From Ferroplasma sp. (GTDB lineage Archaea; Thermoplasmatota; Thermoplasmata; Thermoplasmatales; Thermoplasmataceae): a stretch of DNA of 64,000 nt. Location of the stretch: assembly GCF_031200575.1 (NCBI RefSeq), contig NZ_CP133597.1, positions 248,001 to 312,000 on the forward strand, in the 5' to 3' direction. Below, piece after piece: positions 11,761 to 16,005 of the stretch. Positions within the stretch are counted from its first letter, which is position 1; every line of letters begins with the position of its first letter. Position numbers and translations under genes: made by a program. The notes under the pieces are model-generated. The model worked only from the letters and a program-made list of their open reading frames with translations. It searched no databases and was not told the DNA's origin.

Positions 11761-11942
11761 AATTGTTATCTATTTATGGGCCTATTTTTATGATTTAAAA
11801 AATAGCTTGCAACCAGAGTGTTTGCGAAAGAAATCTATAACAAAAATATCAAAAGAAATTAAAGGAAAATAATTAGAGATTTATTTTTATGGCTCTCAGA
11901 TATAAATTCGGGATAACATAATTAGAAAATTCAATAACAAAA

Positions 11943-11950
11943 TTTATATA
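11943..11950 (+). promoter_or_regulatory. TATA box of the leu operon
   Basis: TTTATATA starts exactly 31 bases before the ATG of the short leader ORF at 11974, the same box and spacing as the vapB promoter. It predicts transcription starting at or near 11974, about 87 nt before leuA. Confidence 0.65.
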
Positions 11951-11973
11951 ATATCATGTATATTAACTTATCA

Positions 11974-12024
11974 ATGAATTCCATAACGTTCATCAGGCAG
12001 TTATACTTTTTGTTGCTTGAGTAA
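11974..12024 (+). CDS. Candidate leucine-rich leader peptide of the leu operon
   Basis: A 16-codon ORF, MNSITFIRQLYFLLLE, sits in the leader of leuA, ending at TAA 12022-12024. Four of 16 residues are Leu, three in a row (TTG TTG CTT) just before the stop, preceded by TTA. Its ATG is at the predicted transcription start, so it could be translated as a leaderless ORF. The arrangement resembles bacterial leu attenuator peptides. Whether it is translated or controls leuA is inference. Confidence 0.5.
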   Translation: MNSITFIRQLYFLLLE

Positions 12025-12031
12025 ACGTTAT
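11983..12031 (+). repeat. Inverted repeat spanning the leu leader ORF
   Basis: ATAACGTT at 11983-11990 is the exact reverse complement of AACGTTAT at 12024-12031, separated by 33 bases that hold all the Leu codons. In RNA this gives an 8-bp stem whose 3' arm starts at the last base of the leader stop codon. A ribosome paused on the Leu codons would cover the 3' arm. Confidence 0.55.
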
Positions 12032-12048
12032 CTTCATTAGAAATTTTT

Positions 12049-12054
12049 GGAGGT
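12049..12054 (+). promoter_or_regulatory. Shine-Dalgarno site of leuA
   Basis: GGAGGT lies 6 bases before the leuA ATG at 12061, directly after a T5 run (12044-12048). A strong ribosome site is unusual here, where first genes often look leaderless, and it fits leuA being an internal cistron behind a leader ORF. Confidence 0.65.
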
Positions 12055-12060
12055 AATAAG

Positions 12061-13224
12061 ATGTATTTTTATGATAGTAGAGGCTATGGCGATTTTTTCA
12101 ATATGGGAGAGTATAGCAGGATGGGATATGATCAGATAAAAAAGAAGATAAGCATATTTGACACAACACTACGCGACGGTGAACAGACACCGGGTGTTTC
12201 ATTTTCCATGAACCAAAAGTATGAGATTGCCACAAAATTAAACGATGCGGGAGTAAATATAATCGAGGCAGGCTTCCCTGCAGTTTCACCGGACGAGCTA
12301 AAAACTGTGAAGCACATTAATAGAGATATAGGAAATATATGTTCACTGGCAAGATGCAACAGGAACGATATTGATCGTGTCATAGAATCAGGCTCTGGAA
12401 TAATACATTTATTCATCGCAACATCAGACATTCATATGCAGTATAAACTGGCAATGTCACGGGAGCAGGTTTTTGATAAGATAATAGAATCTGTTGAATA
12501 TGCAAAATCTCATGGACTGAATGTGATATTTTCTCCTGAAGATGCCACAAGAACTAACATGGACTTTATGGAAAGAATAATAAGGGCAATTGACGTTGAT
12601 ACTGTAAATTTTCCGGATACTATTGGTATAATGAATCCAATGTCTATGTATTATTTTATAATGAAAATAAAAGAATTTACCCACAAGAAAATTAGCGTTC
12701 ACTGCCACAACGATTTCGGCATGGCAACGGCAAACACATTAGCAGGAATTATGGCAGGTGCTGATGAAGTTCAGGTAACCATCAATGGAATAGGCGAGAG
12801 AGCAGGAAATGCATCACTGGAGGAGGTTGTATCTGCTATTTATGGTTTTTCTGATTCCTATACAGATATAAAAATGGAAAAACTATACAGCATATCTGAG
12901 TATGTTGCCTGTGCCAGCGGGGTGATTCCGCAGAAAAACAAGGCAATAACAGGGGAAAATGCGTTTTCCCACGAAGCAGGAATACATGTACATGGCATAA
13001 TAAACAATCCAAAAACCTATGAGGCTATAAATCCTGAAATTTTTGGGGTAAAAAGAAGAATTGTTATAGGAAAGCACTCAGGAAAGGCAGCAGTGAAGTA
13101 TATACTTGAGAGCAGGGGCATATACAAAACAGAGGATGAAATAAATAATATATTAAAAATAATAAAAAATGAGAACAGGACAGTTGATGATGAATATTTA
13201 TTACAGGTGGTAAATAATGAGTAA
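12061..13224 (+). CDS. leuA: 2-isopropylmalate synthase-type enzyme
   Basis: A 387-aa DRE-TIM metallolyase condensing acetyl-CoA with a 2-oxo acid. Key motifs: FDTTLRDGEQTPGVSF (metal Asp and catalytic Arg), HCHNDFGMATANTLAG (metal His residues), and NGIGERAGNASLEEV. The C-terminal allosteric domain of classical LeuA (~120 aa) is absent, so feedback by leucine binding is unlikely. An N-terminal extension of about 25 residues precedes the barrel; the ribosome site supports start 12061. Homocitrate or citramalate synthase cannot be excluded, but leuCDB downstream and the Leu-rich leader favour leucine synthesis. It overlaps leuC by 8 bases. Confidence 0.85.
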   Translation: MYFYDSRGYGDFFNMGEYSRMGYDQIKKKISIFDTTLRDGEQTPGVSFSMNQKYEIATKLNDAGVNIIEAGFPAVSPDELKTVKHINRDIGNICSLARCNRNDIDRVIESGSGIIHLFIATSDIHMQYKLAMSREQVFDKIIESVEYAKSHGLNVIFSPEDATRTNMDFMERIIRAIDVDTVNFPDTIGIMNPMSMYYFIMKIKEFTHKKISVHCHNDFGMATANTLAGIMAGADEVQVTINGIGERAGNASLEEVVSAIYGFSDSYTDIKMEKLYSISEYVACASGVIPQKNKAITGENAFSHEAGIHVHGIINNPKTYEAINPEIFGVKRRIVIGKHSGKAAVKYILESRGIYKTEDEINNILKIIKNENRTVDDEYLLQVVNNE

Positions 13225-14458
13225 AACAGCAGTAGAAAAAATATTTTCAGAAAAAAGTGGAACAGATTCCAGAGCCGGAGACTATGTGGTGGCTAATATA
13301 GACTATGTTATGGCTAATGATATAACAGCACCCATAGCCATTGATGCATTCAATGACCTTGGAATGAGTGCAAAAAGCGATAAAATTATAATTATTCCAG
13401 ATCATTTTATACCTCCAAAGGATATAAATTCTGCAAAGCAATACAAAAAATCAAAAGATTTTGCACTGGATAATGGAACCTGGTTCTATGATATAGGAAG
13501 CGGAGGTGTTTGCCACCAGGTTATGATGGAAAAAGGTTTTGCCGCACCTGGCAGGCTTATAGCTGGCGCAGATTCTCACACCAATACATACGGTGCTCTT
13601 TCTGCTATATCAACCGGAATCGGCAGCACAGAGGCCGGTGTAATATTTGCCACCGGGAAAATGTGGTTCAAAATCCCTGAGACCATTAAAATAAATCTTA
13701 AGGGCAAACCTTCTAAAGGGGTGGAGGGAAAGGACATAATCCTTTATATCTTATCAATAATAAAAAATGGAGGTGCTGCCTACAAATGCATGGAATTTTC
13801 AGGGGATATCAAATATATAGACATCAATGAAAGGATGACAATGGCAAATATGACCACCGAGGCAGGGGCCAAGTGTTCATTCTTTGACACTGATGAAAAA
13901 ACAATAGAATACCTGAAACAGCGCAACACCGGAGAATATAAAATAGTAAAATCCGACGATAATGCTGATTTCGAGCAAACTATAGAGATAAATATGGCAG
14001 AAATAGAGCCTTCAGTGGCGGTACCTAATTCTCCGGATAATGTTAGGCATGTTTCAGAAATACATGAAAGGATCGACCAGGCGTATATAGGTTCATGCAC
14101 CAACGGTAGAATAGAAGATATTAGAAAAGCAGCATCAATATTAAAGGGTAGAAAGGTTGACAGAAGGGTCAGGCTGATGGTTGTCCCTGCAAGTCAGGAG
14201 GTTTACAACCAGGCCCTAAGGGAAGGCCTTATAAATACCATCGTAGAATCAGGGGGTTATTTCTCAGGCACAACATGTGGCGCATGCCTGGGCGGTTATA
14301 TGGGAGTTTTAGGGCCGGATGAAGTATGCATATCATCCACAAACAGGAACTTTATCGGCAGAATGGGTGATAAAACATCTAAGGTATACCTGGCAAACCC
14401 ATCAATAGTGGCTGCGTCTGCAATACTTGGAAGAATAGGGACACCGGAGGAGATATAA
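13217..14458 (+). CDS. leuC: 3-isopropylmalate dehydratase large subunit
   Basis: A 413-aa aconitase-family large subunit, the usual archaeal size. The [4Fe-4S] cysteines appear as YIGSCTNGRIEDI (residue about 294) and TTCGACLGGYMG (about 354-357), with GADSHTNTYGA upstream for substrate binding. With LeuD it isomerises 2- to 3-isopropylmalate. It starts within the leuA end and its stop abuts the leuD start, so the subunits are translationally coupled. Archaeal paralogues can act on homoaconitate or citraconate; the leuB neighbour favours isopropylmalate. Confidence 0.92.
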   Translation: MSKTAVEKIFSEKSGTDSRAGDYVVANIDYVMANDITAPIAIDAFNDLGMSAKSDKIIIIPDHFIPPKDINSAKQYKKSKDFALDNGTWFYDIGSGGVCHQVMMEKGFAAPGRLIAGADSHTNTYGALSAISTGIGSTEAGVIFATGKMWFKIPETIKINLKGKPSKGVEGKDIILYILSIIKNGGAAYKCMEFSGDIKYIDINERMTMANMTTEAGAKCSFFDTDEKTIEYLKQRNTGEYKIVKSDDNADFEQTIEINMAEIEPSVAVPNSPDNVRHVSEIHERIDQAYIGSCTNGRIEDIRKAASILKGRKVDRRVRLMVVPASQEVYNQALREGLINTIVESGGYFSGTTCGACLGGYMGVLGPDEVCISSTNRNFIGRMGDKTSKVYLANPSIVAASAILGRIGTPEEI

Positions 14459-14941
14459 ATGATGGAAGAAATAAGCGGAAGGGCAATAATATTAGGAGAT
14501 AACGTGGACACAGATCAGATTATACCTGCCAAATATCTGAATACGTCAGAGCCGGATAAACTTGCACCACATTTCATGGAAAATGAATATCCTGACCTTG
14601 CCGGATCTATTCAAAAGGGGGATATAATAGTTGCAGGCAAAAACTTTGGGTCGGGCTCAAGCAGGGAACATGCGGTAATAACCATAAAGGGGCTTGGGAT
14701 TTCATGCATCATTGCTGAAAGTTTTGCAAGAATATTCTTCAGAAACGCCATAAATACAGGAATACCGGTTATAGAGGCAAAGGTCAGTGCAAACAGCCTT
14801 GAAAAAATTACAGTTGATTTCAGGAACAGCAGGATATTTTGCGGTGGAAAAGAGGTTGAATTCAAAGAATACCCAGAATTTCTGAAGAATATAATAGAAA
14901 GCAACGGCCTTATCAACTACGTGAGGTCAGGCAAATGGTAG
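14459..14941 (+). CDS. leuD: 3-isopropylmalate dehydratase small subunit
   Basis: A 160-aa swivel-domain subunit. GDNVDTDQIIPAKYLN at the N-terminus and GKNFGSGSSREHAV are the diagnostic motifs of the small subunit, the second carrying the substrate-binding Ser-Arg. It forms the active heteromer with LeuC. It begins directly after the leuC stop and overlaps leuB by 7 bases. Confidence 0.93.
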   Translation: MMEEISGRAIILGDNVDTDQIIPAKYLNTSEPDKLAPHFMENEYPDLAGSIQKGDIIVAGKNFGSGSSREHAVITIKGLGISCIIAESFARIFFRNAINTGIPVIEAKVSANSLEKITVDFRNSRIFCGGKEVEFKEYPEFLKNIIESNGLINYVRSGKW

Positions 14942-16005
14942 ATATAGCAGTCATACCGGGTGATGGCATTGGTAAGGAAATAATCCCTCAGGTATGCAGG
15001 ATGCTGCATTCGGTGGACCAGTCTCTTAATTTTGTCTATTATGACATATCATCTGAACGTTATATTAACAGAGGTATAACAGTAACAGATAATGAGATAG
15101 AGGAATTCAAGAGCTATAAATCCATATTTTTTGGGGCTATAGGGGATTTTCGCGTTAAGCCAGGAGTAATGGAACAGAATGTCATATTAAAGCTAAGAAA
15201 AGACCTTGATCTGTACATGAATATACGGCCGGCCATTTCATTTAAACGAATAACGGGGAACGAAATTAATATTACCATACTGAGGGAAAATACTGAGGAT
15301 TTTTACTCCGGAATTTCAGGCACGCTTCCTGGTAAACAAACCTTTGAAATGGGGAAAGGCATATGCAATTATAATGTTGATATTTCTGGAGATTCCGACA
15401 GTGCAATATTTTATACAATGGGCATACTTTCAGAGAGAAATCTGACTAGGTTTTTTAAAAAGGCATACGAAATTGCAGGTTCAGACAATATTACTGTTAC
15501 AGATAAGGCAAACGCTGTGCAAATGTACTCAATCTGGAGGGATATCGCACGTAGGCAGTCAGAAATATATAATAAGGAAATAAAATTCGAATATGCAGAT
15601 TCTCTTGCATATAACATTATAAAAAATCCGTTGAAATATAAATATATTATTGCACCAAACCTTTATGGAGATATTATATCAGACATGACAAGTTCACTGG
15701 CAGGTGGCCTTGGTTACGCACCTAGCGGAAATATAGGAGATAAAAATTCTATGTTCGAGCCTGTACACGGAAGTGCACCGGATATTGCAGGCCGGAATAT
15801 CGCCAATCCAGTGGCATCAATACTATCATCCATAATGATGCTGAAGCACATAGGAATGGATGACACGGCATCTGTTATAGAAAAATCATTGAAAAATATA
15901 ATAAATAAGGGCATAATACCTATGGAATCAGGTGGTTCATATACCACATCCAGATTCATAGAAGAGGTTACAAAAATATCACAACTTCCAAAAAATGAAA
16001 TATAA
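14935..16005 (+). CDS. leuB: 3-isopropylmalate dehydrogenase
   Basis: A 356-aa member of the isocitrate/isopropylmalate dehydrogenase family, which oxidises and decarboxylates 3-isopropylmalate with NAD. MVDIAVIPGDGIGKEI is the N-terminal signature; ITILRENTEDFYSGI carries substrate-contact residues; and NLYGDIISDMTSSLAGGLG holds the metal-binding Asp residues. GSAPDIAGRNIANPVA follows. It is the last gene of the leuACDB operon. Isocitrate or homoisocitrate activity is an alternative; position favours leucine. Confidence 0.9.
   Translation: MVDIAVIPGDGIGKEIIPQVCRMLHSVDQSLNFVYYDISSERYINRGITVTDNEIEEFKSYKSIFFGAIGDFRVKPGVMEQNVILKLRKDLDLYMNIRPAISFKRITGNEINITILRENTEDFYSGISGTLPGKQTFEMGKGICNYNVDISGDSDSAIFYTMGILSERNLTRFFKKAYEIAGSDNITVTDKANAVQMYSIWRDIARRQSEIYNKEIKFEYADSLAYNIIKNPLKYKYIIAPNLYGDIISDMTSSLAGGLGYAPSGNIGDKNSMFEPVHGSAPDIAGRNIANPVASILSSIMMLKHIGMDDTASVIEKSLKNIINKGIIPMESGGSYTTSRFIEEVTKISQLPKNEI

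Follow-up and report, generated by a model that had tools for sequence, protein, structure and literature searches.

The sequence upstream of leuA in a Ferroplasma genome is likely to encode a leucine-sensing leader-peptide attenuator of an archaeal leuACDB operon. The conserved features of the leader lead us to think that the leader peptide very probably senses leucine through the position of the ribosome that translates it.

Organization of the leuA locus

The window, i.e. the whole 64-kb stretch of DNA that was analysed, comes from a genome consisting of one 1.86-Mb contig; all of the features described for it here lie on the plus strand. A TATA box, TTTATATA (11943–11950), is found 31 nt upstream of the ATG (11974) of a leader ORF of 16 codons plus stop, MNSITFIRQLYFLLLE (11974–12024, with the TAA at 12022–12024). 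The TATA box predicts a transcription start at or very near this ATG, and the ORF is thus probably leaderless. A short ORF lies between the promoter and the first structural gene, as in an attenuator. An in-frame ATG further upstream (11956) was considered as the leader start and rejected; it is placed past the TATA box but ahead of the predicted start and is probably unused. The Leu codons span 12001–12018: a TTA (12001–12003) three codons ahead of the Leu run, and then TTG (12010–12012), TTG (12013–12015) and CTT (12016–12018).

Segment 1 comprises the outer 5' arm of helix P1, AATGAA (11973–11978), which includes the leader start codon, and the inner 5' arm of helix P2, ATAACGTT (11983–11990). 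Segment 2 (12024–12038) overlaps the leader stop and contains the corresponding 3' arms, AACGTTAT (12024–12031) and TTCATT (12033–12038), the outer helix flanking the 8-bp repeat of P2. Inside segment 2 is an anti-SD, TTATCTTC (12028–12035), which is the complement of the leuA Shine–Dalgarno (SD) region, GGAGGTAA (12049–12056), our segment 3. A T5 tract, possibly a weak archaeal terminator or an unstructured spacer, precedes the SD (12044–12048), and six bases separate GGAGGT (12049–12054) from the leuA ATG at 12061. The original prediction had placed a promoter box 31 nt before a Leu-rich ORF of 16 codons, a perfect 8-bp inverted repeat, a T5 run and GGAGGT six bases before leuA; a direct reading of the sequence confirms all of these at the coordinates given. 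The outer helix and the complementarity of the anti-SD to the SD were not part of that prediction.

The leader is followed by genes in the order leuA–leuC–leuD–leuB: leuA, encoding a 2-isopropylmalate synthase-like protein (12061–13224), and leuC-like (isopropylmalate dehydratase large subunit; 13217–14458), leuD-like (small subunit; 14459–14941) and leuB-like (isopropylmalate dehydrogenase; 14935–16005) genes. LeuA has HMGL-like and HCS_D2 domains and lacks the LeuA_dimer domain, in agreement with the predicted absence of a C-terminal allosteric domain. The closest named species that was found is Ferroplasma acidarmanus Fer1, the LeuA of which is 77% identical. The LeuA encoded in the window is extended at its N-terminus by ∼28 residues, among them a motif like FFNMGEYSRxG (window positions 12061–12140); the extension is kept in neighbouring genera and does not align with LeuA of other phyla. 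The leader exceeds chance expectation: the 64-kb window holds only 13 ATG ORFs of 8–35 codons with LLL near the end, and a TATA-like box is suitably spaced in only two of them.

Two predicted RNA folds that exclude each other

Ten related leaders, in which the ORF and the arms are kept, were aligned, and slid versions of each helix were used as controls. Hairpin 1:2 has 96.9% of its cells paired, compared with 32–48% for the slid controls. Within it, P1 (AATGAA/TTCATT) is paired in 98.3% of the cells and P2, counted as ten pairs, in 96%, with double-sided compensatory changes at four pairs. Helix 2:3 (anti-SD:SD) is paired in 100% of the cells (slid controls 43–64%); its covariation within the genus is thin, amounting to one double change. 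In eight divergent lineages, comparison with dinucleotide shuffles gave combined p values of 2e-12 for the complementarity of 1:2 and 3e-9 for that of 2:3, values that treat sequences of shared ancestry as independent and to that extent overstate the case. The strongest evidence in favour of helix 2:3 is that its sequence is wholly different between lineages (TTATCTTC/GGAGGTAA, ACTATCTCC/GGAGGTAGT, CACTA-A-CCTTAAAA/TTTTAAGGTGGTG, TCACCC/GGGTGA and CAGGCACCA/TGGTGTCTG). As both 1:2 (the leader hairpin) and 2:3 (SD sequestration) use segment 2, the two folds exclude each other; at the level of sequence, the leader has the pair of exclusive folds sharing a segment that characterizes an attenuator.

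Leaders at leuA of related genomes

The upstream regions of orthologous leuA genes were compared across the genus and neighbouring genera. A leader device is found at each orthologous leuA with a readable upstream region (MNSITFIRQLYFLLLE, MDSIMFIEQLFFLLLE, MNTIIFTQQLFFLLLQ, MNGMVFTQLLFLLAE, MFNIVSNNANVLFLGLHSGH and MFGKVSNAATMLFFLGLQSGH), and the leaders of more distant genera include MLTLVLHEVLLLNESTLSPVVL, (GTG)LTLLVPEFLLLGQSTLSPVVL and (GTG)LPTVTEEVSCVLLLHSGRHHPVP. At each of the 14 leuA loci closest to that of the window, a TATA-like box lies 30 or 31 nt ahead of the leader ATG, which predicts a transcript beginning at the start codon, i.e. a leaderless one. The same 14 loci have a Leu-rich ORF of 15–21 codons in which the Leu run is kept; codons near the beginning of the ORF pair with a segment located at this run or immediately past it. 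The Leu-rich short ORF and the paired arms are present in all 14. Differences in leader length among the closest genera are multiples of three. Loci L012–L014 show a different form, with no TATA-like box at the −30/−31 distance. In L012 and L014 an intact 2:3 hairpin follows downstream of the Leu cluster; this counts against the mechanism proposed below, as does the early Leu codon (12001–12003) that stands apart from the run in the window. The 5' UTR of L012 has one more perfect hairpin, TGTCATGG/CCATGACA, located past the likely promoter and ahead of the leader ORF.

Codons were compared within groups of related leaders of equal length. Synonymous variants make up 24 of the 79 codon variants, compared with 12.1 expected (p 6e-4), and at Leu codons Leu is retained in eight of 15 variants (2.4 expected; p 9e-4). 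As in an attenuator, the cluster of codons for the pathway product is kept by selection. Nascent-peptide arrest was considered and is thought to be unlikely, as the peptide sequences differ widely and it is the Leu content alone that is kept.

Leaders at other amino-acid operons

In five genomes a leader ORF with a run of His lies ahead of the his operon (L214–L218 in G000, G026, G052, G019 and G018, respectively; the G000 leader has its ATG at 1729679 on the minus strand). The leader in the Ferroplasma genome of the window contains METEMYIKPNASFSVFTVNVRHIHHHGRTGIK, and those elsewhere HIHHHSE, IHHHRD, VHHHHNL and MHHHSHQ. These ORFs mostly overlap the start of the first his gene, and two of the five have, past the His run, a stretch that could pair with the beginning of this gene (AATAACCAC/GTGGTTATT).

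Leaders with runs of Ile, Leu and Val, such as GVVVVI and GVVVVLIR, are found at ilvB, both within the order (VSLTASTTELNFSVVGILQIIIGL and MRPNPTASNVILNTISGIIGLVIR) and in other orders (MSNVRTSVPVVLLGLGVVVVI, MTTTNRATVSLLLGVVVVLIR and MRTSITCSERSVVLLGSTVIVVLG); Ile/Leu/Val-rich ORFs lie upstream of ilvB at L186, L187 and L289–L308 in other genera and orders. The Ferroplasma-type ilvB (L144–L152 and L189–L191) has a very short ORF of the MxSVxxFI or MENYMKRFI type, followed by the near-invariant TTTATCTAACATCTGTGGCG and usually by a T5–T7 tract. This upstream stretch resembles a structured regulatory RNA of its own. The trp operon of the genus (L183–L185) was examined as a further case and discarded: it has a TATA-like box close to the first start codon and no leader ORF, showing that not all amino-acid operons use the device. 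In three pathways the codon run matches the pathway, and this is the best reason to think that amino-acid supply is what the leaders sense.

Distribution across the class

LeuA was searched for class-wide and the upstream regions were read, using shuffles that move two-base blocks as controls. A Leu-run leader is present at 46 of the 69 scanned leuA-like loci, compared with 12.0 in the shuffles. Such leaders occur in other families and orders, for example MICNAFIGLLLLLE, MIFAQHIGLLLIE, MRHTSIISLLLLLH, MSESGFDFILLLRSAPVSLL and MKKESTGLLLTLPLGLLILA, and inspection by eye of loci that had been scored negative (L221, L222, L225, L232, L254, L256 and L257) showed mixed Leu/Ile/Val leaders. The hairpin around the ORF beats the shuffles with a combined p of 6e-17 over related sequences, and 20 of 43 leaders do so individually at 0.05. 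No Leu-run leader was seen at the 12 loci of the short second LeuA-like copies of the class (L236–L245, L247 and L248), a consistent Leu-run leader was not found among the Nitrososphaeria and bacterial LeuA relatives (L040–L111), and a search of viral contigs found nothing.

An mcrA-family match above the cut-off was obtained in 14 of the 18 tested genomes of the class outside the order, with a fragment in one and none in three; the mcrA-positive genomes are probably Methanomassiliicoccales. The methanogen leaders have an apparent 5' UTR. At methanogen locus L230, which has a leader, LeuA retains the LeuA_dimer domain, and the idea that the leader stands in for a lost LeuA allostery was therefore rejected; at most of the other methanogen leader loci the leuA open frames are ∼530–580 codons long.

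We consider there to be a good probability that across the class of Ferroplasma, from acidophiles to mcrA-bearing methanogens, ribosome-sensing leader peptides generally control leu, ilv and his; near the window they would do so through leaderless first cistrons, the translation of which would toggle a mimic of the 16S anti-SD. If this is true, ribosome-mediated attenuation would be an established, possibly old, regulatory layer in Archaea, and the coupling of tRNA charging to operon expression by short ORFs would work with archaeal ribosomes and promoters. It would also account for short unannotated ORFs before archaeal biosynthetic operons, allow the sensing of amino acids in Archaea to be tested directly by genetics and pose the question of whether the device was inherited, transferred or reinvented.

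The leaders of L220–L235, from other orders, share TTGCTTTTGCG and then CATTGCT near the end of the ORF. This shared sequence goes beyond coding and hints at a common RNA fold.

Relation to known systems

Leader-peptide attenuation is textbook bacterial regulation, and the leucine and branched-chain attenuators of the enterobacterial leuL/ilvL type belong to it. The ilvB leaders of actinobacteria are likewise branched-chain leader-peptide attenuators (PMC1262725). The archaeal leader resembles these bacterial leu/ilv attenuators in having a short ORF with a cognate codon run before a biosynthetic operon and alternative RNA folds. Unlike them, it has a TATA-box basal promoter and no GC-rich terminator, its output is probably SD sequestration and, near the window, it is probably leaderless.

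The nearest functional analogue is the leaderless polycysteine attenuator of mycobacteria, in which short ORFs regulate the downstream operon through the speed of elongation (PMC9031893, summarising Canestrari et al. 2020); these ORFs are also predicted in PMC4633059. They share with the archaeal leader the leaderless short ORF and a cognate amino-acid run near its end, and differ in being bacterial and in using cysteine. In the translational attenuators of the erm type, macrolide-induced stalling on a leader shifts the RNA between folds in which the start further down is concealed and folds in which it is accessible (PMC5118997). The likeness lies in leader stalling, here proposed, that alters alternative folds at a downstream start, whereas the archaeal signal would be tRNA charging rather than a drug and the peptide varies, with the Leu content alone kept. 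The actinobacterial LEU element, a conserved pseudoknot before leuA with a candidate protein partner (PMC1262725), is also an RNA element upstream of leuA operons; it was compared by its description and by an Rfam scan. No Rfam family (Leu_leader, T-box and others) was matched: the scan gave only two chance-level hits in 11800–12200, and nothing but tRNAs in 16 related loci.

The original prediction knew of no archaeal leucine case and none was found here, nor any other case of archaeal leader-peptide attenuation, in the full-text literature searched; subscription papers fall mostly outside this literature, and novelty is not thereby proven. Regulation by uORFs in archaea is stated in passing in a tool paper (PMC10219788), a Ribo-seq study of Methanosarcina mazei lists short ORFs located in 5' UTRs that may be uORFs, giving no mechanism (PMC11456600), and, according to a review, leaderless mRNAs are widely used by Thermoplasma (PMC7531240). 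The principle is known from bacteria; what is new is that it would operate in Archaea, in a leaderless form and with an anti-SD as its output.

Mechanism and alternative explanations

We propose that transcription from or adjacent to the ATG at 11974 would let a ribosome load on the leaderless ORF and reach the Leu-codon run just ahead of the stop, where its position would select fold 1:2 or fold 2:3. When leucyl-tRNA is short, the ribosome would dwell over the run of Leu codons, its leading edge at the start of the anti-SD, the pairing of the anti-SD would be disturbed and initiation at leuA would rise; when leucine is ample, it would clear the run quickly and leuA would be repressed. In bacterial ribosomes the leading edge lies ∼12 nt past the first nucleotide of the codon in the A site. 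The anti-SD of the closer lineages starts 9–14 nt past the last Leu codon, so that the leading edge of a waiting ribosome would touch its first bases. The original interpretation is right in part. Conservation, covariation and the cognate leaders at other amino-acid operons strongly support a leucine leader-peptide attenuator, but the SD-sequestering partner had been missed. Given this partner, what is controlled is probably the translation of leuA and not the hairpin plus T5 alone, and the control may well act mainly there. We also think it rather likely that leucine starvation raises leuA expression, a sign that is preferred because of the logic of biosynthetic control.

Ensemble folding with masked ribosome footprints was used to follow the accessibility of the SD, in an equilibrium treatment that excludes kinetics, tRNA-specific stalling and 30S competition. 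With standard footprints the SD is hidden with the ribosome at nearly all sense-codon positions and opens in part when the ribosome is at the stop codon or absent. When the A site holds the last Leu codon, accessibilities of ∼0.3–0.7 are reached in several Ferroplasma-type leaders only if the coverage extends to A+17 to A+23, and L011, L012 and L014 show no rise even then; an exposed SD is unfavoured in the static model unless the covered stretch extends well past A+15. That a stalled ribosome would cover the 3' arm, as was claimed earlier, is only marginally true, and with a normal footprint the folding keeps the SD sequestered. Taken literally, the calculations would predict the reverse sign and do not support the textbook view in which starvation gives ON. 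They were uninformative for the methanogen leaders.

Transcription attenuation is a possible but doubtful alternative. Here, hairpin 1:2 together with the T5 would serve as a weak archaeal terminator ahead of the SD. A ribosome halted at the Leu codons would block 1:2, and RNA polymerase would read through; on the full-length mRNA, 1:2 would leave the SD free. This gives the expected sign without special assumptions about the footprint, T4–T5 lies immediately 5' of the SD in 11 of the 12 order-level leaders and a T5–T7 tract follows the conserved motif in the Ferroplasma-type ilvB leaders. However, within the genus the T4–T5 tract lies 4–11 nt past the end of the stem, T5 is short, L013 and several methanogen leaders, among them L228, L230 and L235, have no T tract before the SD, and the conserved anti-SD complementarity would be left unexplained.

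We regard it as improbable that the leader acts as a positive gate, in which only a ribosome at the leader stop would open the anti-SD, so that leucine sufficiency would turn leuA on or leuA would simply be coupled to leader translation. The folding, in which the SD is most accessible with the ribosome at the leader stop and hidden on codons 1–15, fits such a gate, as does the position of the SD, which begins 10–30 nt past the stop. Positive feedback by an end product would nevertheless be physiologically odd for a biosynthetic operon, and the runs of cognate codons found at the leu, his and ilv operons match the starvation sensing of bacterial attenuators.

A DNA operator, in which the inverted repeat, palindromic at its AACGTT core, would bind a transcription factor and the ORF would be incidental, is very improbable and was rejected. 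The perfect 8-mer arms do lie beside the promoter, but they vary by species with the pairing kept (ATAACGTT/AACGTTAT, ATAATATT/AATATTAT, GTATTCAC/GTGAATAC, AGTGTC/GACACT and GTTGAC/GTCAAC), as would suit paired RNA but not a fixed operator, and the leader ORF has a synonymous excess. That a short AT-rich ORF with Leu codons arose before leuA by chance is scarcely credible: a shuffled locus of the class carries a Leu-rich short ORF in ∼17% of cases (12.0/69), but chance is contradicted by the conservation across genera and orders, the count of such leaders among the real loci, the compensatory pairs and the cognate runs at other operons.
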